The position numbers and the translations under genes were made by a program. Shown here piece by piece: positions 47,001 to 63,592 of a DNA stretch of 64,000 nucleotides. Under the pieces are notes generated by a model that searched no databases, was not told where the DNA came from, and saw only the letters and a list, made by a program, of their open reading frames with translations. The stretch's first letter is position 1. Each line of letters opens with the position of its first letter. Origin of the DNA: Affinundibacterium flavidum (lineage in GTDB: Bacteria; Pseudomonadota; Gammaproteobacteria; Burkholderiales; Burkholderiaceae_D); NCBI RefSeq assembly GCF_014284175.1, contig NZ_JACOGA010000003.1, positions 186,001 through 250,000 of the forward strand, written 5' to 3'.

Positions 47001-49784
47001 AGCAGCAGTAATCGTCTGCTTGATCGGTGTCGAGAATGCCTGTCCATCAATAAATAAATTCAGGGTGTCGCCACTGAATGTGCCCGTACCATTCAAGTCG
47101 ACGACGACATCAAAGCCGCTCGTTTTTTCTTGTAAATTAATACCATTTTGGGCAGCTGTCACAGTCAGCACCGCAGCGGTTGGATTCGGCGCAACGCCGT
47201 CTAAGGTGACGGTTTTAGAACCACCTGGCAAGCCCACATTTCCCGCAAAATCGATCAACCTGACGGTCAAAACTTTGGCACCATCTGCGCCCCAACCATC
47301 ATTGGGGCCGACATTTAGAGACACACTTTGGGCCAATAAATCAGCATTGGTCAAAATACGAGTGACAGGCGTCGCAAAACCTTGCCCGCCAATCAGCAAC
47401 TCCGCACGGTCGCCGATTTGCGCGTTGGTACCAGCGAGGCTAAGCTTAACTTCAACGCCTGCATTCTTTTCGACGATAGAAATACCGCCATCCGCATTCG
47501 CCGGAACGACCAAAGGAGTCGACGGTGCTGCCAATGCGATAGTATCAATCACAACCGGCAAGGACGCGCCCAGTGCGCCAACATTTCCGGCAAGATCGGT
47601 AACACGTGCACTCAATTGCTTTATGCCATCTGCACCCCATGCCGCGTTTCCAGGAATAGTCAGTGAGACGAGTTCATTGGCAATATCATCGGCGTTTAAG
47701 ACATAAGTGATAGGGCTGGAAAACGCAGCCCCGTTCAATAAGATTTCTACTTTATCTTTAGCCTGTGCTTGGGTGCCGGACAAATTAAATTTCACCACAA
47801 CGCCATCTGCTTTTTCGACAGTATTAATACCATTTAAGCTTGCTGGCACTAGCAAATCTTTGGTCGATGCGAGTGGCGCGGTCGTATCGAGTATGACATT
47901 CAATGCGGGACTGGCAATGCTAGTATTACCTGCAATATCTGTAAAGCTGACAGCGATTACCTTACTACCATCGGCTCCCCACGCGCTGCTAGCGGGGATG
48001 GTGACTATCGCTTGTTTGGCACTAATTTGTGCTGCGGTGAGTACCTGACTAGCTAAGAGCACAGGCGTTTGTGTTCCGCTTAAAATGCTCACCGTGTCAC
48101 CAGCGACTGCACCCGAACCGAGCAAACTCACGACCACCGCCACACCTGCCGTTTTTTCTGCACTACTAATCCCATCTTTCGCAGCGTCAATCGTGAAGCT
48201 AGTGGTTTCGGATTTAGGTGCAAGACTGTCCAGCAACACCGTTAGGTTTCCGCCGCTTTTACTAACGTTGCCCGTTTTATCTGACATCCGAACCGAAATA
48301 CTGCGATTGCCATCGGCTAGCGACCATGCAGTATCAAAAGCAGAAATGGAGAGCGTTACCGTATTCGCCAGTACTTCCTCTGCGCTTAATACATGCAGTG
48401 TGCTTGAACCAAATACCTTATCGTCGATAAATAGCTCAACAGCATCGCCCGCTTTCGCATTGGTGCCGGTAAGATCAACCACCACACTGATGGGGTTGGC
48501 ACGCTCAGGCAAACTAATGCCAGCAGTCGCTACAGGGATTTTTATCGCATTGCCTGGTGGATTCGGTGCGATGGTATCGAGCTTAACATTGACCGCGCCA
48601 CCGATACCGCCAATATTGCCTGCCACATCAATCACTCTGGCTGCCAACACCTTATCTCCGTCTACTCCCCAATTTGCTGTGCCAGGAATGACCAGTTCCA
48701 CTGTGCCACGTTCGAGATCTGCCTCAGTCAAAGTCGCCAAAACCTTGTTACTGAAACTGACATCATTGAGTAGGATTTCTATCCTGTCACCGACAACCGC
48801 GTTGGTATCGGTAATATCGACCGACACGGTGACACCCGCAGATTTCTCTAGCAAATTAATACTATCAAGCGCTGCCGTTACACTTAATGGATAACTCGGT
48901 GCCTTTGGTGCAACAATATTAAGATCAACGCGCAAATCGCCGCCCGGAGCGCTGGTGTTGCCACTACTGTCTTTAACAATCGCTTGCAATAATTTAATCC
49001 CATCCGCGCCCCAATTCATAGTTTTTGGAATCAACAAACTCACTTTTTTGGCTGTAATATCCGCCGCGCTGAGTTGCTTAGTAATCGCCGTAGGAAAAGA
49101 GCTGCCGTCTATCAACAACTCCACCACATTATTTGCCACCGCGTTTGTGCCAAGTAAATTGACGACGACATCAACACCCGCGGCGGCTTCCGCCGCACTG
49201 ATGCCGTCCGCAGCCGCAGTCACGATCAAGGCATTCACCGGTGCGCCGAGTCCAATACCCGTGGCACCTGAGCCCAAGGCCTTATTCGCAATCGCTATCG
49301 TATCGGGATTGGCATTCACTCCTTGCATCACCGTCTTTAAATAGGCCGGAGACAAATCCGCTTTTTGTGTGAATTGTTGATCAACTGCAAATTGCGAGAC
49401 AGCCAAGCGGTTAACGATATATGCCTTACCGGGGGTACCGTCCACGGTGCTTAGTCCGGCATTGATCATGTCCATCACCAAATTACCGCGACTACGCCCA
49501 TCTATCATCTGCTGCTTCCAGTAATTCAAGCCTTCCAAATCCGGCGATTTACCAAAAACATTGACGTAAATGAGCGTCACAAAAGATTCAAAAGGTAGGT
49601 TAGTTGGATAAATCTCTTTCACAATATCCAAGCTAAAAACAGTCTCTAAGACGCTATCGAAAGTCTTACCACCATTGAGCTGCAATAACCAATATTCAAG
49701 ACCACTTTTCTCCGGCGGGCGGATAAATGCAGCCAAGTACATCTTTATTAACTCATTTTGATAACCGACACTAGCCATAGTCAC
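41058..49784 (-). CDS. Giant DUF4214 / Ig-like repeat surface protein
   Basis: A 2908-residue protein. Residues about 5-140 are DUF4214-like (KMYLAAFIRPPEKSGLEYW, VNVFGKSPDLEGLNYW), a module often found at the ends of large secreted or S-layer-associated proteins. From residue 184 there are 23 tandem Ig-like repeats of 113-116 residues, each with GI..AEK.AGV, GD.VE.LI.G..F.TP, WGADG.K.L and DIAGN.G, and closing LDTTAP. The last 95 residues are a different cadherin/Ig-like domain (YTDVDGSSSINVGD) ending LDLAFSL. There is no signal peptide, so if exported it probably uses a C-terminal type I signal; no secretion genes are adjacent. Repeats 6, 9, 12, 15, 18 and 21 share a GGGI or GGI insertion, showing a three-repeat period of 343 residues. 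Confidence 0.9.
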   Translation of the reverse strand: MTMASVGYQNELIKMYLAAFIRPPEKSGLEYWLLQLNGGKTFDSVLETVFSLDIVKEIYPTNLPFESFVTLIYVNVFGKSPDLEGLNYWKQQMIDGRSRGNLVMDMINAGLSTVDGTPGKAYIVNRLAVSQFAVDQQFTQKADLSPAYLKTVMQGVNANPDTIAIANKALGSGATGIGLGAPVNALIVTAAADGISAAEAAAGVDVVVNLLGTNAVANNVVELLIDGSSFPTAITKQLSAADITAKKVSLLIPKTMNWGADGIKLLQAIVKDSSGNTSAPGGDLRVDLNIVAPKAPSYPLSVTAALDSINLLEKSAGVTVSVDITDTNAVVGDRIEILLNDVSFSNKVLATLTEADLERGTVELVIPGTANWGVDGDKVLAARVIDVAGNIGGIGGAVNVKLDTIAPNPPGNAIKIPVATAGISLPERANPISVVVDLTGTNAKAGDAVELFIDDKVFGSSTLHVLSAEEVLANTVTLSISAFDTAWSLADGNRSISVRMSDKTGNVSKSGGNLTVLLDSLAPKSETTSFTIDAAKDGISSAEKTAGVAVVVSLLGSGAVAGDTVSILSGTQTPVLLASQVLTAAQISAKQAIVTIPASSAWGADGSKVIAVSFTDIAGNTSIASPALNVILDTTAPLASTKDLLVPASLNGINTVEKADGVVVKFNLSGTQAQAKDKVEILLNGAAFSSPITYVLNADDIANELVSLTIPGNAAWGADGIKQLSARVTDLAGNVGALGASLPVVIDTIALAAPSTPLVVPANADGGISIVEKNAGVEVKLSLAGTNAQIGDRAELLIGGQGFATPVTRILTNADLLAQSVSLNVGPNDGWGADGAKVLTVRLIDFAGNVGLPGGSKTVTLDGVAPNPTAAVLTVTAAQNGINLQEKTSGFDVVVDLNGTGTFSGDTLNLFIDGQAFSTPIKQTITAAQALAKSAIIKVPANADWLADGSHVLTVVINDAAGNVSSAGGALIVQVDTTAPKAATNPVVMPAAINGISSIEKNAGVAVELNLAGTNATVADKVELLINGIGFSTPIVQTLSSSDIANGLVNLLIPANANWGADGSKNISFRVSDVAGNVGAIGGTLSVTLDTTAPAGPSGSLNVPANSGGGISQAELNAGVDVIVSLVGAAVTAGDSVEILIGNSPFTTPVRHVITTEELATKSLILTIAGSNSWGGDGTKNLTARFIDIAGNIGTATGLSSVTVDTTGVNPITGILKVSAAQNGISAAEKNAGVDVVVDLTGTGAVSGDQIQIFIDGVAFATPNIFTITAAQASAKTATVKIPGNANWISDGNHLLSASLFDKAGNASIAGGDLIVSLDTLAPNSPSAALNIPAALNGVNNAEKNAGVTVVVSLSGAGVVAGDSVELLIGGKSFSPSVSQIVSSTDIVNGQMNVTIGAAAGWGTDGLKAISARFVDAAGNVGLAGGNANVVLDTVAPAGPSSSLTVPANDGGGISLAELNAGVDVIVSLVGAAVIAGDSVEILIGNSPFSTPIRHVITTAELAAKSVSLTIAGTNSWGADGTKNLTARFIDIAGNTGTATGLVSVSLDTTGINPIINILKVSVAQNGINATEKNAGVDVVVDLAGTGAVSGDQIQILIDGVAFATPNIFTITAAQASAKTATVRIPGNADWISDGNHLLSASLVDKAGNTSIAAGDLIVSLDTIAPGSPSAALSIPAALNGLNAAEKNAGVTVVVSLSGAGLVAGDSVELLIDGKLFSPNVSQVLTNTDILNGQVSLTIGAAAGWGIDGVKALAARFIDVAGNVGVGAGKVPVNLDTVAPAGPTNALVVPVNSAGGITTAELNAGVDVIINLTGVKAVEGETVEILIAGNAFTVPAKHVLTAADILAKTATVTIGPNDGWGGDGSKGLTARFIDSAGNVGTASGLTTVTLDALPPNPVPTPLVVAAAANAISNAERLAGVNVVVDLTGTTSIVGDTITLLIDGVSFSTPVTQKITAAQITAKSAIVTIPGTAVWGADGNKILSATIADAGGNTSLPGGDVSVLLDTTAPVPATNPLVIAAALNGISAAEKTAGVAVTVDLTGGGAGVGDRVEIVLGGAAFPTPVIKTLTALELAAGSVVLTIPTAAGWGADGTKSIAARFIDGAGNIGVAGVASSVNLDTTAPAGPVTTLNVAVNSGGGITLSEKNAGVNVIVNLNGTTVVAGDLVEVLIGGLPFANPVNFILTPAEILAKSVTLTIGSADGWGADGAKILTARFIDIAGNVGSNTGTLTVTLDTGAPNPPSTPLVVATAANGISATEKSAGVSVLASLSATGAVAGDTIQLLLDGAPFATPVTHVITNAEVGANAATIIIPGVAAWGADGSKVLTAMITDTLGNVGAPGGSVTVLLDTVGPTIPSNPVVIGVATNGISLAEKSAGVSVNLDLTGTGVVFGDSIELLLNHLPFSTPVTKVLSALEVGSGLLTMTIPGSVNWGVDGSKIISFRGIDNAGNNGSDGGSLTVTLDTVGPTAPTNPVSVAANSGGGITAAEKNAGVVVDVNLTGTTLVAGELVELLIGGVAWATPIIHSLSGTEIAANLVSLTIGANDGWGADGAKSIGVRFIDSAGNIGAGGASTNVLMLDTTPPNVPNLAMTVAAAINGINLNEKNAGVSVFVNLSGTNAAAGDIASLLIDGSSFSVPVMHTITAGEVTAGNFTFNIGSNDGWGADGSKVLSMIMTDVAGNTGLAGGNVTVVLDATLPNAPSSAVGVAAAAFGINLAEKTSGVVAVVNLSGTNAVVGDRLEILLGGAAFSSPVFRVLNNADILAGSASLTITGTAGWGADGVKNLSARIQDSAGNIGLAGGSLLTNLDTTMPASSALPVYTDVDGSSSINVGDTFLFVINEATNTAITINEVLLSNAHILGTGATAVWSPDGTQLTVTLGTGTTVALGDIVTLVGVSDLAGNSLDLAFSL
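44423..46481 (-). repeat. Two near-identical 1029-bp tandem blocks inside the giant gene
   Basis: Repeats 9-11 (residues 1102-1444) and 12-14 (residues 1445-1787) are the most alike three-repeat blocks: repeats 10 and 13 differ at only about a dozen of 114 residues. DNA similarity is also plain at an offset of 1029 bp, for example about 44921 against 45950. This marks the most recent expansion of the array. Confidence 0.85.
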
Positions 49785-50279: not shown

Positions 50280-51701
50280 ATGACTATACGCCTCTCAATT
50301 CCAAAACCTTCTAGTCTCAAGTTATCCATGGCCATTTGCTTAAGCCTAATTCTGACAGCCTGTGGCGGTGGAAAAGACAGCACGGCCACCACGACTAGCA
50401 CAGCGCCAGCTCTGGTTTCGATCAGTCTTAGTCCTGCCAATTCGACCATAGCGCTGGGCCTTACACAGCAATTTGCAGCGACAGGTAATTATGCCGATGG
50501 AAGTAGTGCTGTTATCACAAAAGATGTGGTGTGGAGTTCACCCGGTACAGTCGCCAGCATAGTACAAACTACAGGGCTAGCGACCAGTAAGACGATAGGC
50601 ACAGAAACCATCACCGCAACCTCAGGCAAAATCAGCGGCAACACCAAATTGATCGTGCAAGGCCCCTATGTTGGGGTATCCGCCGGAGGCAGTCATTCCT
50701 TGGTGTTAAAAGCAAACGGCACGGTGAACAGCAGTGGTCTAAATCGCACAGGTCAATTGGGTAACGGCACTGCGAATGATCAGTCAAGCATGGCAGCAAT
50801 GGGTAGCGTCAACACCTGGACACAAATTGCATCGGGCGAATTTCATACCGTCGCACTACGTAGTGACGCCTCTCTGTGGGCATGGGGTTTCAATCAAAAC
50901 GGACAATTAGGTGATGCCAGTTTCGTCGATAAACTCAATCCGACTAAGATAGGCAGTGCAAGCTGGATCGCTATTGCAGCCGGAAAATCGCACACGGTCG
51001 GAGTTAAAAAAGACGGCACCCTGTGGGCATGGGGACGCAATTTTTATGCACAATTAGGTGATGGTACGGTCATCGATAGAGTAGAACCGGTACAAATCGG
51101 CACTGCAAAAAATTGGACCAGTGTTGCCGCTGGTGCCAGCCACACCATCGCACGCCGCTCCGATGGCACGATCTGGGGCTGGGGTAACAATACCAATGGA
51201 CAAGTTGGTACTGGCCCTAGTGCCACGGTTACCACCCCAACCCAAATTGGCACCGCCACTTGGGTTTCAATCGCGGCTGGTCAAAATCATAGCCTGGCGA
51301 TTCGTGCCGACGGCGCGCTATTTTCTTGGGGAGCAAGCGATCAAGGCCAACTCGGTAACGGCGCACTATCAGATCGTCTCAACCCTAGTCAAGTCGGCAC
51401 ACTCAGCAATTGGGCGTCAGTAGCAGCAGGAAGCAAACATAGTCTGGCCCTCAAGAGCGATGGCAGCCTGTGGGCTTGGGGTGCGAACGAAGACGGGCAA
51501 CTTGGTATTGGCAACAATCTGACACAATTATTACCAATGCCAGTTGGTGATGCAAAGAATTGGAAATTTATCTCCGCTGGCATCGCCCACACGCTTGCCG
51601 TTCGGGCCGACGGTAGTTTATGGGTTTGGGGTAGAAATAATGAAGGTCAATTAGGAGATGGCAAACGCCTGAGCATCAATATTCCTAGCGCATTACCTTA
51701 G
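50280..51701 (+). CDS. RCC1-repeat lipoprotein with N-terminal Big2 domain
   Basis: A 473-residue lipoprotein. The signal sequence ends in the lipobox LTAC followed by GGG, giving a lipid anchor on the cysteine. Residues about 40-125 are a bacterial Ig-like (Big2) domain (ISLSPANSTIALGLTQQF). The rest is about seven RCC1 blades, each with GxxHTxALxxDGSLWAWGxNxxGQLG, expected to close a seven-bladed propeller. Such surface proteins are usually of unknown function; ligand binding or adhesion is plausible. No strong ribosome binding site is seen before the ATG. Confidence 0.87.
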   Translation: MTIRLSIPKPSSLKLSMAICLSLILTACGGGKDSTATTTSTAPALVSISLSPANSTIALGLTQQFAATGNYADGSSAVITKDVVWSSPGTVASIVQTTGLATSKTIGTETITATSGKISGNTKLIVQGPYVGVSAGGSHSLVLKANGTVNSSGLNRTGQLGNGTANDQSSMAAMGSVNTWTQIASGEFHTVALRSDASLWAWGFNQNGQLGDASFVDKLNPTKIGSASWIAIAAGKSHTVGVKKDGTLWAWGRNFYAQLGDGTVIDRVEPVQIGTAKNWTSVAAGASHTIARRSDGTIWGWGNNTNGQVGTGPSATVTTPTQIGTATWVSIAAGQNHSLAIRADGALFSWGASDQGQLGNGALSDRLNPSQVGTLSNWASVAAGSKHSLALKSDGSLWAWGANEDGQLGIGNNLTQLLPMPVGDAKNWKFISAGIAHTLAVRADGSLWVWGRNNEGQLGDGKRLSINIPSALP

Positions 51702-52993: not shown

Positions 52994-54229
52994 TTATCCA
53001 TCGCTGCGTAATGCAGCGATAGGATCTAGACGTGACGCTTGCTTAGCCGGAAATACACCGAATGCCAATCCGACTGCAATACACATAGCCACCGCGATCA
53101 ACAAACTAAGCGGAGACCAGGCAACCGACCAACCCGCTAAGCTTGCAATGCTATACGCCGTAATTGCACCTAACAGAAGTCCCATTAATGCCCCTGTAAC
53201 AGCAATCACCAAAGCTTCCGCCAAGAACTGCTCAACCACGTCTCTGCGACGTGCGCCCAAAGCCCGTTTCAAACCAATTTCGCGTCGACGCTCCAATACG
53301 TTAGCCAGCATAATATTCATGATGCCTATACCACCCACCAGCAAAGACACAGCTGCGATTGAACTCATGACTATCGTAAAGATTCTTTGCGTTTGTTGAT
53401 TCTGCCGATACAAGCCCATAGGCACGATCAAATTCGTATCGTCTGCGTTTGCATGACGTTGTTCAATTAAAGTTTGCAATACACGCGCCGCCGCATCTGG
53501 CGCGACCTTCTCATCAAGCCGCAAACTGATACCGTCGACCTCATCTTCAATTTGTTTGAACAGAAAACGCGCACGGCCACTTTCCCAAGAGACGAATAAA
53601 CGTTCATCATCCAGCCCAAGTTTTACACCTTCAAAATCAGATTTTCCGGCAGACCGATCAGCCAGCACACCAACGACTTCCAACCAGGTATGGTTGAGCT
53701 TAATGCGTTCACCGATAGGATTAAAATCGCCGAACAAGCTCTTTGCCAAACGTGCACCCAACACACACACAGGTGCCAAACTAGCGCCATCTTCGGGAAC
53801 TAACCAGCGTCCAAGATTGACTTGCAAACCGCCATGTTCAGCGTAGGCATGCGATACTGCAAAGGCACGGCCAGCCACAATATTGGTACCGTACACCAAC
53901 TGATCCACTTTGATTTCTTTTTTGAGAGCCACTGATTGCGCACCAGGCACTACCGACATTGCTGCGGCAGCATCGGCTGCAGATAAACCAAGAGAGCGGA
54001 CACGTACGTCTTTTAATTTTTCGGCTGCGATATTTTTTGATTCCAGCAAAATATTATTCAAACCTAATTCAGCCACCAAACGTAAAGCTTCACGCTTGCT
54101 ACCCTCACCAACAGCGAGCATAGCAACTATTGCCGCCACCCCAAATATCATACCAAGCAAGGTCAAACCAGTGCGCAACTTGCGACGTTGTAATTCAACG
54201 ATTGCCTCAAGAATCAAAGCGCGGTTCAT
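52994..54229 (-). CDS. MacB/FtsX-type ABC exporter permease
   Basis: A 411-residue permease with one N-terminal membrane segment (about 18-42), a MacB-type periplasmic core domain (about 43-280) and three C-terminal membrane segments (FtsX domain, with the EIGLKRALGARRRDV coupling motif). The ATPase is a separate gene (57442-58113), unlike MacB where both are fused. Its ATG overlaps the upstream adaptor stop by four bases (ATGA). Last gene of the four-gene export operon. Confidence 0.9.
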   Translation of the reverse strand: MNRALILEAIVELQRRKLRTGLTLLGMIFGVAAIVAMLAVGEGSKREALRLVAELGLNNILLESKNIAAEKLKDVRVRSLGLSAADAAAAMSVVPGAQSVALKKEIKVDQLVYGTNIVAGRAFAVSHAYAEHGGLQVNLGRWLVPEDGASLAPVCVLGARLAKSLFGDFNPIGERIKLNHTWLEVVGVLADRSAGKSDFEGVKLGLDDERLFVSWESGRARFLFKQIEDEVDGISLRLDEKVAPDAAARVLQTLIEQRHANADDTNLIVPMGLYRQNQQTQRIFTIVMSSIAAVSLLVGGIGIMNIMLANVLERRREIGLKRALGARRRDVVEQFLAEALVIAVTGALMGLLLGAITAYSIASLAGWSVAWSPLSLLIAVAMCIAVGLAFGVFPAKQASRLDPIAALRSDG

Positions 54230-55440
54230 GACTTCACCTCTTTTTTCTCGGGAACCAAGACCAATTTGGCGCCAGCACTAATACCAGATTTAATCTCACT
54301 ACGAATCTGTCCGCGCAATCCCAGCTCCACTTTTTGTTTCAACAATTGAGAACTTTCCTTCAGATAAACAAAGTAGTCTGCGCCCTCTTGCACCAAAGCG
54401 ATATTCGGAACAGTAAGCACCTTATTTGCCGCCAATAAAGTCACTCGTCCAGTGATGGCCTGACCAGGCTTTAATCCATAGCGACGCACCAGATCCTGCC
54501 CAATATGCGCCTCAAAATCAGAATATTTAACAGGGGATTCACGCGACTTGGTGCTAGCTGTTTTACCGACTTTACTAACTTTAAGATCAAGTTCTGTGCC
54601 AGTACCTGACAAACGAACTTTAATCGCCTGCCCTTCTTTTAAACCAAAAGCTGCACCTTCTGCGATACTAAATTTTGCGACTTGTTGTTCGAGATCTGGC
54701 AGTGAACCAAACTCTTCTCCAGCCCATAATTTAGTTCCTATCTGTGGAACCGAGTCATCCCATCGCGTCTTTAGAAAGAACACTCCCTGATGCGGCGCTC
54801 TCAATTCCAGTGAAGATAAACTCTTACGCTGCTGTTCTATGGTCAGCGCCACACTCTCCTTTTGCGAATTAATGACCGCCTGATCAGCATTATTACGTGC
54901 ACCTATTTGATTGTTTTTCCATTTCAAATAATCTTGTTTATGATGCAGAAAACCAATGTCCACCAAAGTATCAAGAATTTTATTTTGAGCAAAAATTTTT
55001 AAGTCAGCATTCGCATAACGCTGACTCAAATTCAGATCGGCAGTTACTTTGGCACTATCAGAACTGAGTTCAGCACGCCCTAACTCTGTATTCGCCCGCA
55101 CCCCAAGTTCCATCAATTCTTTGCGTAACATATCCGTCTCAGCCTGGGATAAGGTCACTCTGGCCTGCGTTGCATCAAATTGCGCGATCACCTGACCTTT
55201 TTCGACCATACTGCCGTTGGCCACCATAGAAACTAAATTACGTTGATCCCAACCGGTACCAGGCACATTCAACTGTGTACTGGCGGCAGCTTTAATTTCT
55301 CCATCTGCAACAAGTTCTTCTTGCCAGCTACGTGCTTGTAGCACTTCAACCGGCACACTATCGTTAGCCTGCTCACCACGACAAGCACTTAAACCAGTCA
55401 GCAAACTAAGGGCAAGCAATCGCCATTTAATTTTTCCCAT
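54226..55440 (-). CDS. HlyD/RND-type periplasmic adaptor lipoprotein
   Basis: A 404-residue membrane-fusion protein. From the ATG at 55440 it begins with a lipoprotein signal whose lipobox is LSAC (cysteine 20), so it is lipid-anchored. Beta-barrel, lipoyl and alpha-hairpin regions follow (MVEKGQVIAQFDATQAR; a long coiled coil at about 100-220; a C-terminal APSR-type barrel). An upstream in-frame ATG at 55473 would put eleven extra residues before the signal. It overlaps the double-adaptor gene by 14 bases and the permease gene by four. Confidence 0.87.
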   Translation of the reverse strand: MGKIKWRLLALSLLTGLSACRGEQANDSVPVEVLQARSWQEELVADGEIKAAASTQLNVPGTGWDQRNLVSMVANGSMVEKGQVIAQFDATQARVTLSQAETDMLRKELMELGVRANTELGRAELSSDSAKVTADLNLSQRYANADLKIFAQNKILDTLVDIGFLHHKQDYLKWKNNQIGARNNADQAVINSQKESVALTIEQQRKSLSSLELRAPHQGVFFLKTRWDDSVPQIGTKLWAGEEFGSLPDLEQQVAKFSIAEGAAFGLKEGQAIKVRLSGTGTELDLKVSKVGKTASTKSRESPVKYSDFEAHIGQDLVRRYGLKPGQAITGRVTLLAANKVLTVPNIALVQEGADYFVYLKESSQLLKQKVELGLRGQIRSEIKSGISAGAKLVLVPEKKEVKS

Positions 55441-57445
55441 TTTTTGCTCCCAATTGTGTGACAGATTGTGCACGGGTATTGTCGGTATTGTTTTTGTCCT
55501 TTACTAGCACTTTGCTGTCACCTAATTTAACTTGCACTGCAGTACCGGGTTTCAGATTTTTCGGTAAGGCATCAAATTCTAATTCTATGTCGCGCACGAT
55601 AATCGGTTGATTCTTCGATTTACCATGAAATACCGGGCCGTATCCACTCAGTTTGGCCGCCACTTGGGTATTTGCACCCGGCACAGTGACTAATAATTGC
55701 TGCCCTAATTTAAGTAAAGACACTTGAGCTTCAGGAACTTTAGCCGCTACAAATATTTTTTCCGGGTCAGCTAAATTGGCCACCGCAGAACCCATAAAAA
55801 CGCGACTACCGACCGCAAATTTTTCATCATCGAAACCTGCATTATGTACAACCGTACCGGAGCGTGGTGCAATCACTGTTAACCCATTCAAGCCTTTCTC
55901 CAGCACAGAAATGGTTTGCTGCAATTGCGCAATTTCAGATTTCAAACCGCGTAGTTCAGCAGTTCTGGCGCGCTGTTGGGCTTCGCGCTGACGTTCTGAT
56001 AATTGGGCCAATTGGTTAAATAGCTCGCGTTCAATCACTAATTTGTCATACTCAATACGCTTGACCAACTCGCGCGGTAAAGCGGCTTTGCGCTGCGCTT
56101 TTTCGGCATTACTTTTTGCCTCGTTCACTGACAGATCCGCTGCTTTCGCTGCTTCTGCATGATCGAGTACGATCTTTTCCAGATTACGTTGCTTCTCTTT
56201 GAGTGAACTACGATGCGTATCAAGTCTGGTTTTAGCTTCATTCGCTTCGAATATCGCTACTGGTTCACCCGCTTTGACATGGCTACCTTCCGGCGCCAGC
56301 ATAACCAAATTATAGGTCCACACTTGATGAATACTGGGTGGAGCGATTTGTGCCGATTGACGCGATAACACTTCACCTTCAAATGTTAATTCTTGTGCAG
56401 TGACTTGCGCGTTCTTCTTACTTAGATTTAAGCCAGCTTTATACTCAGATTTGGCATCATTATTTACCGCTATCTTTTGCGTTTTTATCGTCTCGACCGC
56501 CACACTCATGCCCTGCTGCAGATCATAGGGTAAATTTTCTGGCAAACTGATTTCAACCTTGAAGTAACGGCCATTTCCCCAGATTGCACGTGGTTCTGGA
56601 GCACTGGCAATACGCTCAATGACTCCTCTCGCACCAGAAAGTGGTATCGCGTCAAATCGCAACTGCAGGACTTGTCCCTGTTCCAAAAATGGTCGATCCG
56701 CTTCCAATACCCAAGCGATTGCTTTTAGCTTCCCTTCGCCCATAATTTGACCCGCCGACGAACCAATTTGTGCGTGTCCGCCTTCATCTAAGCGTTTGCC
56801 GTTCCAAATATCATAACCATGAACCACTATCCCATCGCGTGCAGCTCTTACCTCGCTTTGTGACTGTTGGAGTTTGGCAAATGCGATTTGAATTTGCAGA
56901 CGTTTAACTGCCAGATCGGCGTCTTCTAATTTGCGTTTGACCGCTGACTTCGCGTTTTCTTGTGCCTTTTGCTTGACCGTTAAATCTCGAATAGCACGCT
57001 CTAGCTCACCCTGATATTTATCAAAATCCAGTGCAGAAATCTGTGCTTTTGGCAAAGCGGCATCAATCTTCGCCTTTGCCAATGCAGCTTGAGCGGTAAT
57101 CAAGGCTCTATCCGCTTCTACCGTCTTGACGTCCAGATCTGCCGCTTCGCGCAAACCACGTTCGCGAGTTTGCACCAGTTCTAATTCCAGCCGTTCTAAT
57201 TCTGAATTACCTTGTGAGTCGACCCTTAGAATGACATCTCCCGCTTTAACCTTGCTGCCCTCGGGAACAAAATAACGTAAAGTAACAGGCGAGATATTCG
57301 ATGATGGAACGATAATAGGAACCGAATCCACGGCCTGCAGTTCGCCAGTAAATAAAACCGGACGCTGATAAGCAGGTGCAGGTAATTTGTCAGCATACGC
57401 AACTGCACAAATCGATAATGTCAGTCCAAACACTAGGCGCCTCAT
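55427..57445 (-). CDS. Double (tandem) HlyD-type adaptor protein
   Basis: A 672-residue exported protein, about twice the usual adaptor length. After a signal peptide (to about residue 18, VAYA) come two adaptor modules. Module 1 (about 25-330) has a lipoyl half (GSKVKAGDVILRVD), coiled coil (65-195), second half (ARDGIVVHGY) and a barrel. Module 2 (about 345-665) repeats the order with GSHVKAGEPVAIFEAN, a coiled coil (400-520), APRSGTVVHNAG and a barrel. The two GS-VKAG lipoyl motifs are about 310 residues apart. No membrane segment or lipobox is seen, so it is probably soluble in the periplasm. It is the second gene of the ABC export operon. Confidence 0.85.
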   Translation of the reverse strand: MRRLVFGLTLSICAVAYADKLPAPAYQRPVLFTGELQAVDSVPIIVPSSNISPVTLRYFVPEGSKVKAGDVILRVDSQGNSELERLELELVQTRERGLREAADLDVKTVEADRALITAQAALAKAKIDAALPKAQISALDFDKYQGELERAIRDLTVKQKAQENAKSAVKRKLEDADLAVKRLQIQIAFAKLQQSQSEVRAARDGIVVHGYDIWNGKRLDEGGHAQIGSSAGQIMGEGKLKAIAWVLEADRPFLEQGQVLQLRFDAIPLSGARGVIERIASAPEPRAIWGNGRYFKVEISLPENLPYDLQQGMSVAVETIKTQKIAVNNDAKSEYKAGLNLSKKNAQVTAQELTFEGEVLSRQSAQIAPPSIHQVWTYNLVMLAPEGSHVKAGEPVAIFEANEAKTRLDTHRSSLKEKQRNLEKIVLDHAEAAKAADLSVNEAKSNAEKAQRKAALPRELVKRIEYDKLVIERELFNQLAQLSERQREAQQRARTAELRGLKSEIAQLQQTISVLEKGLNGLTVIAPRSGTVVHNAGFDDEKFAVGSRVFMGSAVANLADPEKIFVAAKVPEAQVSLLKLGQQLLVTVPGANTQVAAKLSGYGPVFHGKSKNQPIIVRDIELEFDALPKNLKPGTAVQVKLGDSKVLVKDKNNTDNTRAQSVTQLGAKNGKN

Positions 57446-58113
57446 GCATGCACCTCATCGACTTTGCCATCCTTCAAATAAATAGTACGTTGTGCCTTTG
57501 CTGCGATATGCGGATCATGGGTAACAAGCACCATGGTTTGCCCATTGGCGTGCAATTCTGCGAGTAATTCCAGTACATCATTCGCACTTTTAGAATCCAA
57601 ATTACCGGTTGGCTCGTCCGCAAGCAGCAATGCTGGTTGATTCAACAAAGCGCGCGCAATCGCTGCTCGTTGCAACTGTCCACCTGACAATTCACCCGGC
57701 AAATGACTGATACGTTGACCTAATCCCATACGTTCTAACAGATGTCGGGCACGAGTTTCTGCCTCAGGGTCAGCTTGCTCGGCGTAACGCTGCGGCAATA
57801 AAACATTTTCCAACACCGACAAGCGCGGCAATAAATGAAACGATTGAAACACAAACCCTATACGACGATTGCGTAAATCCGAGGAGGCATCATCATCCAT
57901 ACTGCCAATCTCATCTTGCTCTAAGTGGTAAGTGCCACTATCTGGTTTATCAAGTGCCCCCAGCACATTCAACAACGTGGATTTACCAGACCCAGACGGC
58001 CCCATAATCGCGACAAATTCACCACGAGCAATCGATAAGTCCACGCCATCTAAGGCACGAATATCGTTTCCCCCTTGCTGATAAGTCTTACGAATATTCT
58101 TTAATGCAATCAT
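57442..58113 (-). CDS. MacB/LolD-type ABC transporter ATPase
   Basis: A 223-residue ATP-binding protein. Walker A is GPSGSGKST, the signature is LSGGQLQRAAIARAL and Walker B is LLLADEPTGNLDS. The family pairs with FtsX-type permeases for export or extraction of lipids, peptides or macrolides. First gene of the operon ATPase / double adaptor / adaptor lipoprotein / permease, with four-base overlaps. No TolC-type outer-membrane gene is in the window. Confidence 0.92.
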   Translation of the reverse strand: MIALKNIRKTYQQGGNDIRALDGVDLSIARGEFVAIMGPSGSGKSTLLNVLGALDKPDSGTYHLEQDEIGSMDDDASSDLRNRRIGFVFQSFHLLPRLSVLENVLLPQRYAEQADPEAETRARHLLERMGLGQRISHLPGELSGGQLQRAAIARALLNQPALLLADEPTGNLDSKSANDVLELLAELHANGQTMVLVTHDPHIAAKAQRTIYLKDGKVDEVHA

Positions 58114-58276
58114 CGATTTTTCCTAAATAGCCATATCATGGTAGAACCATAGAAATTGGCAGGAAGTATCTTTGCATTTGTGACAATTGTCAACAAAGCA
58201 GATTTATATCAATAAAGAAATTCTTAAAATTATTAGATCGACAATTTGGTATAGAAAAATCGTATAGCGTTCAGAC

Positions 58277-58344: not shown

Positions 58345-59727
58345 TCAGCAAGGCATTTCAGCATTTTTACGTGAATAGAACCACCAGGTAATGACCATGC
58401 AGCTAAGGTAAAACACGATGAAAGTGTACAGCGCCATATCCGGTGCACCAGTAATTTTGATAGAAGTACCAAAGCCTTGTGGAATGAAAAAACCACCGTA
58501 GGCACCAATCGCACCAGAGAAGCCCAACACTGCCGCAGATTCTTTAGCCGCATCCAAACGTGCTTGTTTGATTGCTGCTTCGCCTTTGCCAGCGGCTGCA
58601 CGTTCTCTGTCGGTTTGGAAAATAATCGGAATCATGCAGAACGTAGAACCGTTGCCCAAACCAGTCAGAATAAACATGCCGATAAAGGAGAACAAGAACA
58701 CGCTGAATTGGTTCGCATGTAAGGCAGGCAGAATACCAAAAGCAATCGTCGCGGCCATCGCGGCAAATACCCAGAAGGTCAAACGTGCGCCACCTAATTT
58801 ATCTGACAAGATGCCACCAACAGGACGAGCCAACGCGCCTGCTAAAGGCCCCAAGAAAGCGAATTTAGCGACATCAATTTCGGGGAACTGCGCTTTAATC
58901 AACATGGCAAAAGCGGCAGAAAAACCAATGAATGAACCAAAGGTGCCAATGTACAACCAACACATTAACCAATTGTGTTTGCGTTTAAAGATAATCGCTT
59001 GATCAGAAAATGAAGCTTTTGCGGAAGCGATATCGTTCATACCGAACCAGGCAGAAATCGTCGCTACCACAATAAATGGTACCCAGATAAATCCTGCGTT
59101 CGCGAGCCAAAACATTTTGTCGGTATTGGTTTTGACATTGTGATACAAGAAACCGTCGCCAGAAACTGCAGCACCAAACACCGCAGACGAAATGACCAAG
59201 GGCGCGACGAACTGCACCACGGATACACCGAGATTACCTATCCCTGCATTCATCCCTGTGGCATAACCTTTACGCGATTTTGGAAAGAAGAAACTAATAT
59301 TCGCCATACTGGAACTGAAATTGCCGCCCCCCAAACCACACAGCAGCGCAAGAATTAACAGTGTGGAATAACTAGTTGTTGGATCTTGCAAGGCAAAGCC
59401 CATACCGATTGCTGGTATCAGCAAACTCGCAGTCGAAATCGCTGTAAAACGACGACCGCCAAACACCGGCACGAGGAAGGAATAAAAAATCCGCAAAGTC
59501 GCACCAGAAAGCGCAGGCAATGCGGTTAAGAAAAACAACTGATCTTTGGTGAATTTAAAACCTGCCTTATCCAAATTGGCTGCTACTACGCTCCATAACA
59601 TCCAAACAGAAAATGCCAACATCAGACAGGGAATAGAAATCCACAGATTGCGGTTGGCGATATTGCTGCCCTCTTTCTTCCAAAACCCGCCGTCTTCGGG
59701 TTCCCAACGACTTAAGACGTGACTCAT
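58345..59727 (-). CDS. narK: NarK-type nitrate/nitrite MFS transporter
   Basis: A 460-residue 12-segment transporter. The two nitrate signatures are visible: GMNAGIGNLGVS in segment 5 and IGAYGGFFIPQGFG in segment 11. A charged insert precedes the last pair of segments (DRERAAAGKGEAAIKQARL), as in NarK1-type proteins. Located directly after the NarX-NarL and Crp/Fnr genes but behind its own strong terminator-separated leader, so it likely has its own nitrate- or anaerobic-controlled promoter. No nitrate reductase gene is in the window. Confidence 0.92.
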   Translation of the reverse strand: MSHVLSRWEPEDGGFWKKEGSNIANRNLWISIPCLMLAFSVWMLWSVVAANLDKAGFKFTKDQLFFLTALPALSGATLRIFYSFLVPVFGGRRFTAISTASLLIPAIGMGFALQDPTTSYSTLLILALLCGLGGGNFSSSMANISFFFPKSRKGYATGMNAGIGNLGVSVVQFVAPLVISSAVFGAAVSGDGFLYHNVKTNTDKMFWLANAGFIWVPFIVVATISAWFGMNDIASAKASFSDQAIIFKRKHNWLMCWLYIGTFGSFIGFSAAFAMLIKAQFPEIDVAKFAFLGPLAGALARPVGGILSDKLGGARLTFWVFAAMAATIAFGILPALHANQFSVFLFSFIGMFILTGLGNGSTFCMIPIIFQTDRERAAAGKGEAAIKQARLDAAKESAAVLGFSGAIGAYGGFFIPQGFGTSIKITGAPDMALYTFIVFYLSCMVITWWFYSRKNAEMPC

Positions 59728-59752
59728 TTTGTACCCCCTCTTTAATGAATTA

Positions 59753-59804
59753 CTTATTTACCTAATTTACTGAGCTAACTTACTTAGCCAACGTATTTAG
59801 CCAA
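59753..59804. repeat. 13-bp degenerate tandem array (4 units) upstream of narK
   Basis: Units CTTATTTACCTAA, TTTACTGAGCTAA, CTTACTTAGCCAA and CGTATTTAGCCAA. It ends 25 bp from the narK start, in the leader where regulatory sites are expected. Confidence 0.65.
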
Positions 59805-59836
59805 CTTACAACGCGCCGCACTCCGATGACACCACC

Positions 59837-59880
59837 AAAAAAAACGCGCAGTCCTTAGTGATTACTTTAAGGACTGCGCG
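59837..59880 (-). terminator. Terminator of the Crp/Fnr gene
   Basis: CGCGCAGTCCTTA (59845-59857) and TAAGGACTGCGCG (59868-59880) form a perfect 13-bp stem with a 10-base loop. An eight-A run on the left gives the T-run on the minus strand. Confidence 0.92.
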
Positions 59881-59935
59881 ATAAATTAGGAATTCTTCGT
59901 ATGGGCTTAAAGCCCTACGCAAAGGAGGGAGAAAC

Positions 59936-60724
59936 TCAGCCAAAAGAACTAGTACGTTCAGGCGCCTGCTCAGATGTTAGCTCTGATGTAGATTTGCGGT
60001 TTGCAGCACGGGTTGAATTTTTATTCGACGTATTCTCTTGCGCCGCATTGGTGCTAGCGTAAGCTTTTAGCGCGGTCAGGCAATTAATATGTATGCGCGA
60101 CGCGCTGACACGGATTAAATCCAACTCGCTAAGATGATGCAACATGCGCGAGAAAGTTTCTGGCGTGAGATTTAATAAAGAGGCGACGACATTTTTTTTC
60201 AATTCGAGCCGGATGTCATTGCTGTCCTGGGTCTCCGCCACTTGTACTAGATAATCAACGACTCTTTGCATTGCGTTGTGTGAAGATTGACGTTCTACAC
60301 TGCGGATAAATCCAAGCAAACGATGCGACAAACCCGTCATCATCTGTCGTGCTATCGTTGGCGACTGATCGAGCAGTTTGAACAATGCGTTCTTAGGCAA
60401 ACGCAATAACAGCGAGGGTTCTAACGACTCTGCGTAGAATGGATAGGGTTCTTCCAAAAACAACATTGCTTCACCGAAGCATTGACCGGGGCGAATCAAT
60501 TCCACGATTTTGTCACTACCGTTAGAAGAGGGAATCGCCAGTTTGATCAAGCCGTACACTAAGATAAAACAGGCGTCGGCAGTATCGCCTTTTTGGAATA
60601 GACTGAGACCTTTATCCAATTCCAGTTTCACCACTTCCTTTTTTAAGCTCTCTAACTCAAACGGTGAAATGTGACGAAACAAAGCTTGATTGGATAATAG
60701 TCCGTCAAGATTGATCTTACTCAT
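59936..60724 (-). CDS. Crp/Fnr-family regulator (Dnr/Nnr-like)
   Basis: A 262-residue regulator: cyclic-nucleotide-type sensor barrel (about 10-125), dimer helix (130-160) and winged helix (165-235, recognition helix in LTPETFSRMLHHL). It lacks the N-terminal cysteine set of Fnr, so it does not bind an Fe-S cluster that way; the Dnr/Nnr group of NO- or nitrogen-oxide-responsive regulators is the likeliest class, with the nitrate genes around it in agreement. The C-terminal 30 residues are a Ser/Thr/Asn-rich tail beyond the family's usual end. A GC-rich hairpin covers its ribosome binding site. Confidence 0.87.
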   Translation of the reverse strand: MSKINLDGLLSNQALFRHISPFELESLKKEVVKLELDKGLSLFQKGDTADACFILVYGLIKLAIPSSNGSDKIVELIRPGQCFGEAMLFLEEPYPFYAESLEPSLLLRLPKNALFKLLDQSPTIARQMMTGLSHRLLGFIRSVERQSSHNAMQRVVDYLVQVAETQDSNDIRLELKKNVVASLLNLTPETFSRMLHHLSELDLIRVSASRIHINCLTALKAYASTNAAQENTSNKNSTRAANRKSTSELTSEQAPERTSSFG

Positions 60725-60729
60725 TGCAA

Positions 60730-60756
60730 GCCCCCATCTTATTAATGTATGGGGGC
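60730..60756 (-). promoter_or_regulatory. Hairpin covering the Crp/Fnr gene ribosome binding site
   Basis: ATGGGGGC (60749-60756) and GCCCCCAT (60730-60737) pair over 8 bp with an 11-base AT-rich loop. On the minus strand the GGGGG stretch that would serve as Shine-Dalgarno is within the stem, six bases before the ATG. It could limit translation, or be a dyad operator. Confidence 0.55.
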
Positions 60757-60865
60757 AAGTGTAATTGGGCTATTCAACAGCGCCTATACGCCATTAGGAC
60801 TAGATCGTCATCGCAAAAGACTAAGACCCGTTACGATTTAAAACGCTCAGGAAATAATCGAAACA

Positions 60866-61510
60866 CTATTTGTCCATGCCGTGCTCCACCGCGTACACGG
60901 CAATTTGCACGCGACTGGTGAGATTAAGTTTTTTGAGTATGTTCTGCACATGAATTTTGACGGTGCTTTCTGCGACATCAAGATTGCGCGCAATTTCTTT
61001 ATTACTTTCGCCCCGTGCTAAACACACCATGGTTTCACGTTCGCGCGGTGTGAGTTTTTCACGCTCTGGCGTGCTTGAAACATTATTCCCTGAACGAAAT
61101 TGCATGACCAATTTGGCGGTCATAGATTCCGCGATGACCGGTTCGCCAGCAGCTGCACGCTTAATCGATTGCGTCAGGTAATCGGCTTCGATATTTTTTA
61201 ACAAATAGCCGCGCGCACCATTTTTTAATGCCGTCGTCAGGTCTTCTGCTTCTTCTGATACGGTCAACATCAAAACTGCTGTATCGGGTAAGTCTTCGAC
61301 GATCAATTGCATCGCCTCTAACCCCGACAAACCAGGCATATTTAAATCCATCAAGACCACGTCGGGTTTCAACTGCTTAGCGCGTTTTACACCTTCCAAT
61401 CCATCAGCCGCTTCACCGACAATTTCAAATTCTGGATTGCGTTGCAGTAGCAAACGTATGCCGCTGCGAAATAAACTGTGATCATCTACCAATAAAATTC
61501 TTATGCTCAT
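60866..61510 (-). CDS. narL: NarL-type nitrate response regulator
   Basis: A 214-residue NarL/FixJ response regulator. Receiver: D9-D10 in LLVDDHSLF, phospho-acceptor D55 in VLMDLNMPG. C-terminal LuxR-type helix-turn-helix: LTPRERETMVCLARGESNKEIA then VKIHVQNILKKL. It lies directly downstream of the NarX-type kinase gene (101-bp spacer holding a 13-bp tandem array) and is therefore its partner. Confidence 0.93.
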   Translation of the reverse strand: MSIRILLVDDHSLFRSGIRLLLQRNPEFEIVGEAADGLEGVKRAKQLKPDVVLMDLNMPGLSGLEAMQLIVEDLPDTAVLMLTVSEEAEDLTTALKNGARGYLLKNIEADYLTQSIKRAAAGEPVIAESMTAKLVMQFRSGNNVSSTPEREKLTPRERETMVCLARGESNKEIARNLDVAESTVKIHVQNILKKLNLTSRVQIAVYAVEHGMDK

Positions 61511-61532
61511 GTCTCTTACTTCACTTTCTTTT

Positions 61533-61584
61533 GATTTTTTCGGCTGACTTTTTTGTGTGATTTTTTCGTGTGATTTTTTCGTAT
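61533..61584. repeat. 13-bp degenerate tandem array (4 units) upstream of narL
   Basis: GATTTTTTCGGCT, GACTTTTTTGTGT, GATTTTTTCGTGT, GATTTTTTCGTAT, with a further partial unit. It fills the narX-narL spacer and ends 22 bp from the narL start; on the coding strand it is an A-rich leader. Confidence 0.8.
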
Positions 61585-61611
61585 GTTTTTTACTTGATGA
61601 GAAAAATCGAA

Positions 61612-63537
61612 TTATGCCACTAGACGTTCTTCGCGCTTCAAATGTAGCGCAATCGTGGTGCCATGAGCGAGATCACTTTGGATCGAGAACTGGGCGGCTA
61701 AGCGCTCGGCCCGCTCTTGCATAATCCGCAAACCCACGTGATCTTCGCCCTTTTGTTTGACCGTGTCCATATCAAATCCCAAGCCATCATCATGCACAGT
61801 CATCGCGAAATCACGATCATTGATGACTATCACATTAACTTCACTCGCTTGTGCATGTTTTCGTACATTTGATAAAGCTTCCTGCAAAATGAACAGCACT
61901 TGCAATTGCTGCTCAGAAGGTAATTGAGCACCATTACCCTCGAACTCTATCGTGCCATGGACGCCAGTCTGGCGCTGGAACTTCGCCACGACATTGCGCA
62001 TTTCTGATTCTAAATTACTGTCTTGCAAGCGGGTGCGGAAATTCAATAACAACTCACGCACATCTTCATAACTCTCTTGGATACCCGCGCGCAATAGCGG
62101 TGCGATGTCATGAATCTCTTGCACGTCGTTGCGTTTCAAAGAGTCTTCCAACATCTGCACTTGCAGATTGAGGAAGTTCAGACCTTGGGCAATGCTGTCA
62201 TGCAAACCTTGCGCCAATAAGTTGCGTTCTTGTGAAACGGCGAATTCTTTTTCTTTGGAAATCAAGCGTTGATTTTCTATCGAAGAGCCGAGGTTTTTTC
62301 CGAGAATTTCTAAGAGTCGACGCTCCTCCCCCGACACGATACGCTCTTGTGAAAAATGCAGAGAGAAACTGCCGATTACCTGATCCCGAGTTTGAATCTG
62401 AAACACCGCAAGCGAGACGTAACCTTCTTCCTGACAACGATAACGTTTTTGCTGGTCTAGCAAACGGAAATCACGCACTAAAATAATTCCTTTTTCTGTA
62501 GCGGCGCCACACAGGCAATCATCTTTTTTGATGCAATGTTCTTCCTCTATCATTTTTTCAGAAATACCTTCATGCACCGTGATATGCACATTATCTTTTT
62601 GACTGTCGAGGATGCGCACGGTACCGCCATCGGCTTGCATGCGTTGCATAATTCTATGCAAGAAACCGCGACATAATTCCTCGATCGCATGAGGCCCAGA
62701 CAAAAATGCCGCGATCTCATACAGGGTACTAATTTCATGATTCTGCGATTGTAATTTGGCAGTCTTTTCAACGACCCTGACTTCTAATGTTCTATGCACG
62801 CTTTGCACGTGATCCGCCATTTGATTGAAAGCTTGCGCCAGCACACCAAATTCATCTTCTGTCTCTATCGGCAAGCGCACGCTTAAATCATCTTTACTCA
62901 TACGTGCGATCCCTGCCTGCATACGCGTTACAGGGCCGACTATCCACAAATACAAGAGATACAGCAAAGCCACGCTGGCGGCCAAAGACATGAATATCAA
63001 GGAAGTTTGACATAGTCGTAGCCACGTCGTTTTTTCGGCAAGTTCGACCTCCACCAAGGACACCAGTTGATTGATCGTTTTAACGAATTCTGGCAAATCT
63101 AGCGCGTAATTTTGCAAAGCAATTTGCTTTAACTGCGGATCGGTTTCACCTGCAACTTTTTTGGCATTGACTTGGATATGTTGCAGCCAGGTTTGCTGCA
63201 CATTTTTCATCTGTTCACGAATCGCTGCAGTTTGCGGCAAGAACAGCGGTCGTTTCGCATCACCGGTTTGCAGATCAAGTAAGGTGCGATTAAATTCTTG
63301 CAGCTCTTGCTCCACACTAGTACCAGGCTGTGCATGTTCTAACACCATTGCCAGTCTATAGGAGCGCATACGCAGGCTGCCTGCTTCATTAATCGCTGCA
63401 CCGCCCCCTTCCAGTTGCCAAGACAAAAGCAAGGTATAACCAATGGCGGCCAAAGTCAGGGCGAGCCCCAGCACCGTCGTCATTAGGATACGAAAAGTAA
63501 GTCGTTTGCCGATAGGTAATTGATTGTCGGAGTCCAT
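61612..63537 (-). CDS. narX: NarX-type nitrate sensor histidine kinase
   Basis: A 641-residue membrane kinase. Segment 1 (about 15-40) leads into a periplasmic domain with the NarX P-box (NEAGSLRMRSYRLAM, about residues 50-64), the nitrate/nitrite contact site. Segment 2 is at about 180-205, then HAMP, a GAF-type domain containing CIKKDDCLCG, a HisKA_3 helix with GLHDSIAQGLNFL and a HATPase domain (HDDGLGFD). The ATG at 63537 is chosen; a TTG start at 63567 would add ten residues. The cysteine group in the GAF domain is a usual NarX feature. It precedes narL. Confidence 0.92.
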   Translation of the reverse strand: MDSDNQLPIGKRLTFRILMTTVLGLALTLAAIGYTLLLSWQLEGGGAAINEAGSLRMRSYRLAMVLEHAQPGTSVEQELQEFNRTLLDLQTGDAKRPLFLPQTAAIREQMKNVQQTWLQHIQVNAKKVAGETDPQLKQIALQNYALDLPEFVKTINQLVSLVEVELAEKTTWLRLCQTSLIFMSLAASVALLYLLYLWIVGPVTRMQAGIARMSKDDLSVRLPIETEDEFGVLAQAFNQMADHVQSVHRTLEVRVVEKTAKLQSQNHEISTLYEIAAFLSGPHAIEELCRGFLHRIMQRMQADGGTVRILDSQKDNVHITVHEGISEKMIEEEHCIKKDDCLCGAATEKGIILVRDFRLLDQQKRYRCQEEGYVSLAVFQIQTRDQVIGSFSLHFSQERIVSGEERRLLEILGKNLGSSIENQRLISKEKEFAVSQERNLLAQGLHDSIAQGLNFLNLQVQMLEDSLKRNDVQEIHDIAPLLRAGIQESYEDVRELLLNFRTRLQDSNLESEMRNVVAKFQRQTGVHGTIEFEGNGAQLPSEQQLQVLFILQEALSNVRKHAQASEVNVIVINDRDFAMTVHDDGLGFDMDTVKQKGEDHVGLRIMQERAERLAAQFSIQSDLAHGTTIALHLKREERLVA

Positions 63538-63592
63538 GTGGATTACTTTACCAAGGTTGAAACTCAATAGGGGCTCGCTGCAAATGCATCAG

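Follow-up and report, generated by a model that had tools for sequence, protein, structure and literature searches.

The window, a stretch of 64,000 nucleotides from Affinundibacterium flavidum (contig NZ_JACOGA010000003.1, positions 186,001 to 250,000), carries on its minus strand, at 52994-58113, an operon for an ATP-binding cassette (ABC) transporter with three HlyD-type adaptor modules. The genes run from an ATPase through a double adaptor and a lipoprotein adaptor (LP) to a permease, all of them overlapping in the list of open reading frames (ORFs). ORFs and Pfam matches together confirm the gene set of the original prediction, which had named an ATPase, a 672-residue adaptor, a lipid-anchored adaptor and a MacB-type permease. 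The features are as follows, with signal peptides and lipoboxes here and below judged by eye, without a predictor.

57442..58113, minus strand: ATPase (nucleotide-binding domain) of the MacB/LolD type, 223 residues, operon gene 1; Pfam ABC_tran, 3.8e-35.

55427..57445, minus strand: double adaptor, 672 residues, with a signal peptide, module 1 at about 26-322, a linker, module 2 at about 346-645 and an unconserved tail; from Pfam, an AlphaFold2 model, structural matches and hhalign.

54226..55440, minus strand: LP, 404 residues, with a lipobox (LSAC, Cys20) and a membrane-proximal domain; from the alignment and a profile match to MacA.

52994..54229, minus strand: MacB-type permease, 411 residues; Pfam MacB_PCD, 4.7e-30, and FtsX, 4.8e-23.

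58165..58193, minus strand: promoter-like match 5' of the ATPase gene (TTGACA, 17 bases, GATACT), a consensus match only.

The gene overlaps measure 4, 14 and 4 bases, the second counted from an LP start at the ATG at 55440. The listed GTG at 55473 is the less likely start, because most orthologues begin near the ATG. Promoter-type matches number five in the region against a mean of 8.9 in shuffled sequences, which is fewer than chance. Both permease domains and the ABC_tran domain of the ATPase score above their Pfam cut-offs, and by these domains the transporter is assigned to the MacB-type (mechanotransmission) ABC transporters. The cut-offs of several NCBIfam models were missed: the MacB equivalog, a model that expects a fused protein, gave 250.9 bits with the ATPase and 175.9 with the permease against 966, LolD gave 250 against 307.75 and LolCE 40.1 against 362.45, and the darobactin-exporter models gave 38.5 (LP) and 23.4 (double adaptor) against 450 for DarC and 227.8 against 375 for DarD. 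LolD and MacB were the top-scoring NCBIfam models of the ATPase, both under their cut-offs, and its best E-value was with LolD.

We checked whether domain prediction would leave only one adaptor module in the 672-residue protein; domain search, model and profile comparison all found two, which together with the LP gives the three modules per set that had been predicted. Pfam identifies two HlyD_3 and two HlyD_D23 stretches, and an hhalign profile comparison aligns module 1 with module 2 at E 8e-21 over 275 columns. The corresponding comparisons with the LP gave 2e-22 for module 2 and 2e-16 for module 1. AlphaFold2 models were built from two-row alignments of the window and a contig of Undibacterium pigrum (L004), whose double adaptor is 51% identical to that of the window. 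The double-adaptor model is weak overall (mean predicted local distance difference test, pLDDT, 51.8; predicted template modelling score, pTM, 0.37). Two hairpin cores, at about 91-180 and 411-510, are confident in it (block means 79-93), and a strand-helix-strands barrel follows each hairpin at lower confidence.

Foldseek and VIA-align place EmrA, MacA, BesA, Spr0693 and ZneB among the top matches of the double adaptor, and the matches span residues 30-320 (most) and 349-642 (some) as separate units. Whole-module root-mean-square deviations are large (10-28 Å) because domain placement in the model is poor. Structural Z values of 9-12 are also reached by unrelated long helical proteins, and the hairpin alone is therefore not diagnostic. 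Better evidence comes from the hairpin-free part, of which 91 residues match BesA at 2.2 Å with Z 12.4. The first barrel is followed only by a linker, with a median of 28 residues between GMS and the next GE; this crude pattern could be located in 34 of 37 loci, and its values of 3 and 7 are probably misassigned. The second barrel is followed only by the unconserved tail, and there is thus no space for a membrane-proximal domain in either module. The description of the protein as two complete HlyD-like modules therefore stands for their number, as seen by Pfam, model and hhalign, and does not stand for their completeness in the MacA sense.

The LP contains one HlyD_3 stretch, barely above the cut-off (22.3 against 22.2), and its profile matches MacA into the C-terminal domain (4dk1, a MacA-MexA chimera, 1.9e-14; 4dk0, MacA, 6.9e-14). 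A long helical region appears in its AlphaFold2 model, which is of very low confidence (pLDDT 35.6). Cys20 is invariant in all 18 aligned rows, and this alignment is better evidence than the lipobox pattern search, which missed 4 of 24 rows and chose the wrong cysteine in 2. An outer-membrane location of the LP was considered from its +2 residue and rejected. By the rule for E. coli, the lack of Asp at +2 would mean the outer membrane, and none of the 24 lipoproteins has it as judged by eye; the rule says nothing for the LP, because three further lipobox adaptors of the same genome (L164, L165 and L166) also lack Asp at this position.

A protein search recovered the double adaptor at E <1e-140 in 23 of the 43 genomes of the host genus. 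With an 18-row profile at E 1e-15 it was found in 48 of 392 genomes of the family, spread over 6 of 44 genera, as well as in 2 of 399 genomes of the order and 1 of 369 of the class. At E 1e-9 the profile matched 13 of 398 phylum genomes, comprising the own genome, one family member, eight others of the same class and three weak matches; the last are single-module adaptors, two of which adjoin ORFs of 1049 and 1067 residues. These samples differ, and the class sample missed class members that the phylum sample found. L046 was left out of the alignments, being on the same contig as L004.

Gene order was compared in 37 other fused loci, from the 22 other genus genomes with the gene and 15 of the 25 with it in the rest of the family. 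The four-gene order and strand are kept in 36 of them, and in the remaining one, L055, the contig edge is reached before the ATPase. No stop lies inside the fused gene in any of the 37 loci, the last 25 residues of each match being excluded. The permeases of fused loci are 69-91% identical to that of the window, while the nearest ones outside the family, among 300 genomes of the order, reach at most 37%; those of two Pseudoalteromonas replicons with three adaptors are 41% identical. At 14 of 18 of the nearest order loci outside the family, module profiles found one adaptor gene directly upstream of the ATPase, and one of the 14 (L150) has a second adaptor ORF after the permease. The module profiles gave no adaptor match in L147, L156, L160 and L161, of which L156 did show an adaptor ORF in a later search.

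Outside the family, eight genomes have the system (L197-L204), in fused and unfused form. The double adaptor is fused in L197. In L198 the TGA of adaptor 1 overlaps the ATG of adaptor 2 (ATGA), and adaptor 2 is separate, with an apparent signal peptide. L199-L204 have five genes in the order ATPase, adaptor 1 (315-343 residues), adaptor 2 (337-390 residues), lipoprotein adaptor and permease, and the same five in this order are present on pNC201 of Pseudoalteromonas sp. NC201 and on a plasmid of P. piscicida 2515. Adaptor 2 has a lipobox in all six of L199-L204. It aligns with the LP profile to its end in L199, L203, L208 and L209, and with part of the C-terminal domain of that profile in L200 and L202. 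Given that adaptor 2 has a membrane-proximal domain in these relatives, its loss from module 2 may be secondary.

To place the modules relative to other adaptors, we compared two trees. The first (63 rows) separates modules 1, 2 and LP from 30 other adaptors with support 93/94, and the second (75 rows, with the unfused relatives added) gives the same split at 100/100. The control adaptors are 30 ORFs of L144-L178 that match the module profiles at E ≤0.01, other adaptors of these loci being excluded. In the 75-row tree, which covers 15 loci (five of the genus, two more of the family and eight outside it), module 1 (100/98), module 2 (99/98) and LP (100/100) each form one group of 15, and the remaining long-branch warnings concern control adaptors. 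On this tree, the triplication is dated before the split of these families. The fused L197 and the unfused L198 are sisters in all three adaptor groups, and fusion would therefore have occurred either twice, or once with a later split. Judged from sequence comparison, the system looks like an old three-adaptor MacB-type exporter that became fused secondarily in these loci.

Adaptors that bind TolC bear the RLS motif, RxxxLxxxxxxS, at the hairpin tip, as described in the cited section of PMC3391258. Anywhere in the sequence, the strict motif is present in none of 15 rows of module 1, 4 of 15 of module 2 and 5 of 15 of LP, compared with 24 of 30 controls. With S or T at the last position the counts are 1, 4 and 7 of 15 and 25 of 30, against shuffled means of 2.1, 2.6, 3.6 and 7.6; the controls were picked by similarity to the modules, which if anything favours likeness. 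The motif is thus not clearly above chance in module 1, module 2 or LP. Within the aligned tip region it is absent from modules 1 and 2, and the aligned tips of all three show a five-column gap (three in the L094 LP) at the Arg position, while module 1 keeps the motif Ser in 12 of 15 rows (own count). Within the family, each of the three tips has a strong conservation pattern of its own. Such conserved tips, lacking the TolC-docking motif, point to an exit partner yet to be found.

That no channel gene adjoins the operon was borne out: a search with four channel proteins encoded in the own genome found no outer-membrane channel ORF in any of 46 loci, mostly 15-22 kb long (one 5 kb, one 4 kb). 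The same queries found channels in L144, L148, L149, L150, L152, L154, L157 and L173, the last of which itself holds one of the four queries, and matches to the channel family (OEP) are present elsewhere in the own genome. The prediction that no substrate gene adjoins held likewise, as the flanking ORFs looked at, those of at least 100 residues, included no cargo gene that recurs between loci; smaller ORFs, for instance those of a small peptide cargo, were outside this scope, and the Pfam scan covered some of the flanking genes.

Naming a cargo or regulator by gene context was tried and rejected, since the flanks differ between groups. narK lies upstream in most window-like loci; in the window itself, the minus-strand region 58345-63567 upstream of the operon encodes a NarK-type nitrate transporter, a Crp/Fnr-type regulator, and a response regulator together with a PilJ-domain histidine kinase. 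In the second genus group (L004) the operon stands between the gene of a FAD-binding protein, probably nadB, and nadC/nadA, and a LytTR regulator is found near the operon in L051 and L054. Upstream and on the same strand in L089 (10783-17809, minus) are a MerR-TipAS regulator, a DUF5694 protein, a 1194-residue ABC-2/M1-peptidase fusion and an ABC ATPase. Of the eight loci that lie outside the family, three (L200, L201 and L204) have a divergently transcribed TonB-dependent receptor gene beside the ATPase gene; this adjacency is only a lead, because such receptors are common proteins. On the other side of the operon in the window, 41058-49784 (minus) holds an ORF of 2908 residues, perhaps a giant surface protein, with a bacterial Ig-like (Big_13) signal that covers its full length, of which no stretch passes individually, and a DUF4214 stretch. 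The ORF at 50280-51701 (plus) encodes a lipoprotein-like protein in which a Big_2 domain and seven RCC1 repeats were identified.

From the number of modules, the conservation of gene order, the division of the adaptors into three sets in the tree and the absence of any clear RLS motif, we propose a MacB-type ABC exporter whose conduit consists of three specialised, co-inherited adaptor modules, arranged as a (1-2-LP)x2 ring on a permease dimer; we give this reading about an even chance. Module 1 would be secreted, with no anchor seen, and module 2 is fused behind it here and would be a lipoprotein of its own in several relatives, while the LP would supply the lipid anchor and the membrane-proximal domain. 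Two double adaptors and two LP would close a six-module ring in the order 1-2-LP-1-2-LP, seated on a permease dimer with two ATPases. The fusion would keep modules 1 and 2 adjacent, and the LP would close and anchor each half ring and bring a membrane-proximal domain to each permease subunit. In the proposed direction of transport, ATP-driven movement of the permease would push a compound from the periplasm, probably amphiphilic or peptide-like, through the ring to an outer-membrane exit encoded elsewhere, which would be reached by tips unlike those of the TolC-binding type.

Two copies of each module are proposed because three co-inherited kinds of module are to be reconciled with a sixfold adaptor ring. 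In adaptor structures both ends of a module lie at the membrane-side end, and a short, variable linker would for this reason suit side-by-side neighbours. The original prediction had offered a ring with two kinds of subunit or a taller stack. A ring of unlike subunits is supported indirectly, by the separate genes in the same order in relatives and by each adaptor forming one set in the tree. The taller stack is disfavoured and was rejected as a candidate, as every module has its own hairpin in the model and both module ends lie on the same side. MacB is a dimer, MacA a hexamer and the complete pump 2:6:3 in the cited sections of PMC5985334 and PMC5595328, and the permease is expected to be dimeric here because MacB is (PMC5985334, same section). 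A stricter form of the proposal has an obligate three-subunit (1-2-LP)x2 ring with the same twofold symmetry as the permease dimer and with three specialised tips that dock on an outer-membrane partner in a manner unlike RLS-TolC; it is tentative and may well not hold. If true, the exporter would be the first ABC pump, as far as our searches show, whose adaptor is a hetero-hexamer of three kinds, and the gene fusion would fix the order of two ring neighbours.

Several observations weigh against the three-kind ring. The (1-2-LP)x2 stoichiometry comes from analogy. Module 2 retains a membrane-proximal domain in some relatives, and a single such domain for each permease subunit is therefore no rule of the system. 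The LP model has very low confidence, and long branches meet in both trees, in the first also those of module 2 and LP. In the LP the S-or-T motif is about twice as frequent as after shuffling, and a single LP row (L094) matches the motif in the aligned tip region. With neither a channel gene nor a clear RLS motif, a TolC-like exit is unsupported.

Some of these points feed other explanations. Three double adaptors alone might form the six-module ring, with the LP as an accessory tether or ATPase stimulator; fused dimeric adaptors do work in another pump (cited section of PMC4446572), fused AcrA dimers can form such a ring, and the membrane-proximal domain and the anchor sit on the LP here. 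However, the LP also has a long helical region, in its very-low-confidence model, and groups with modules 1 and 2 in the tree, the separate genes of relatives leave no fixed dimer there, and a dimeric permease is better matched by two sets of three than by three of two, which makes this arrangement unlikely. It is also conceivable, if rather doubtful, that the ring does not span to an outer-membrane channel and serves as a device in the periplasm or near the membrane, for instance in the extraction or movement of lipids or lipoproteins, or in sensing. Long hairpins with strongly conserved tips suggest a tip partner, and channel-family matches exist elsewhere in the genome; on the other hand, such a device would agree with the lack of the RLS motif in the aligned tips of modules 1 and 2, with the 46 loci that have no outer-membrane channel gene, and with the best ATPase E-value, under the cut-off, being that with LolD.

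An ordinary MacAB-TolC drug pump with a recently duplicated adaptor gene is very improbable and disfavoured, although permease and ATPase are MacB-like and a MerR regulator with a TipAS drug-recognition domain stands just upstream on the same strand in L089. The triplication is older than the family split in the tree, among 300 genomes of the order no permease from outside the family exceeds 37% identity, and most such loci (14 of 18) have one adaptor directly upstream of the ATPase.

In most accounts of tripartite pumps, the adaptor ring consists of six copies of a single protein or of three pairs. Three different adaptors with a probably dimeric ABC permease would be a natural way to split a ring into defined positions, which opens to study what each hairpin contacts and whether the ring order is fixed. 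The occurrence of fused and unfused forms across separate lineages makes this order directly testable.

Among known systems, LolCDE has a similar ATPase, the LolD and LolCE models staying under their cut-offs here, and is not known to have adaptors. With MacA-MacB-TolC and split-gene MacB-type pumps such as Vibrio VarACDEF, the present system shares a MacB-type permease with a periplasmic core, a MacB/LolD-type ATPase and one or more HlyD-type adaptors. In contrast to MacA-MacB-TolC, its ATPase is separate from the permease, no clear RLS motif for TolC docking is found at the adaptor tips and no channel gene adjoins; nor does a homohexamer from one adaptor gene agree with three modules in two genes here and in three genes in relatives. 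The claim that the assembly is undescribed holds in part. Fused dimeric adaptors and two-adaptor pumps are in print (cited sections of PMC4446572 and PMC4338810), while no ABC system with three dedicated adaptors was found among the matches listed from the open-licence PMC literature, which is weak evidence of novelty.

VarACDEF has one adaptor and two permeases in the cited section of PMC5595328. TriABC-OpmH and other two-adaptor pumps likewise use more than one kind of adaptor per transporter (cited section of PMC4338810); TriABC is a resistance-nodulation-division (RND) pump with two adaptors, whereas Pfam identifies the transporter here as an ABC permease, with three, and an assignment to the TriABC type fails. 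MacA has an N-terminal transmembrane helix (cited section of PMC5985334), where the anchor here would be the lipid on the LP. The double adaptor itself has a counterpart in DSY0927 of Desulfitobacterium, which likewise combines two adaptor modules in one natural ABC-transporter polypeptide (cited sections of PMC4446572 and PMC4338810). The N-terminal half of DSY0927 is described there as having no coiled coil, whereas the protein from the window is predicted to have long hairpins in both halves and is accompanied by a third adaptor.

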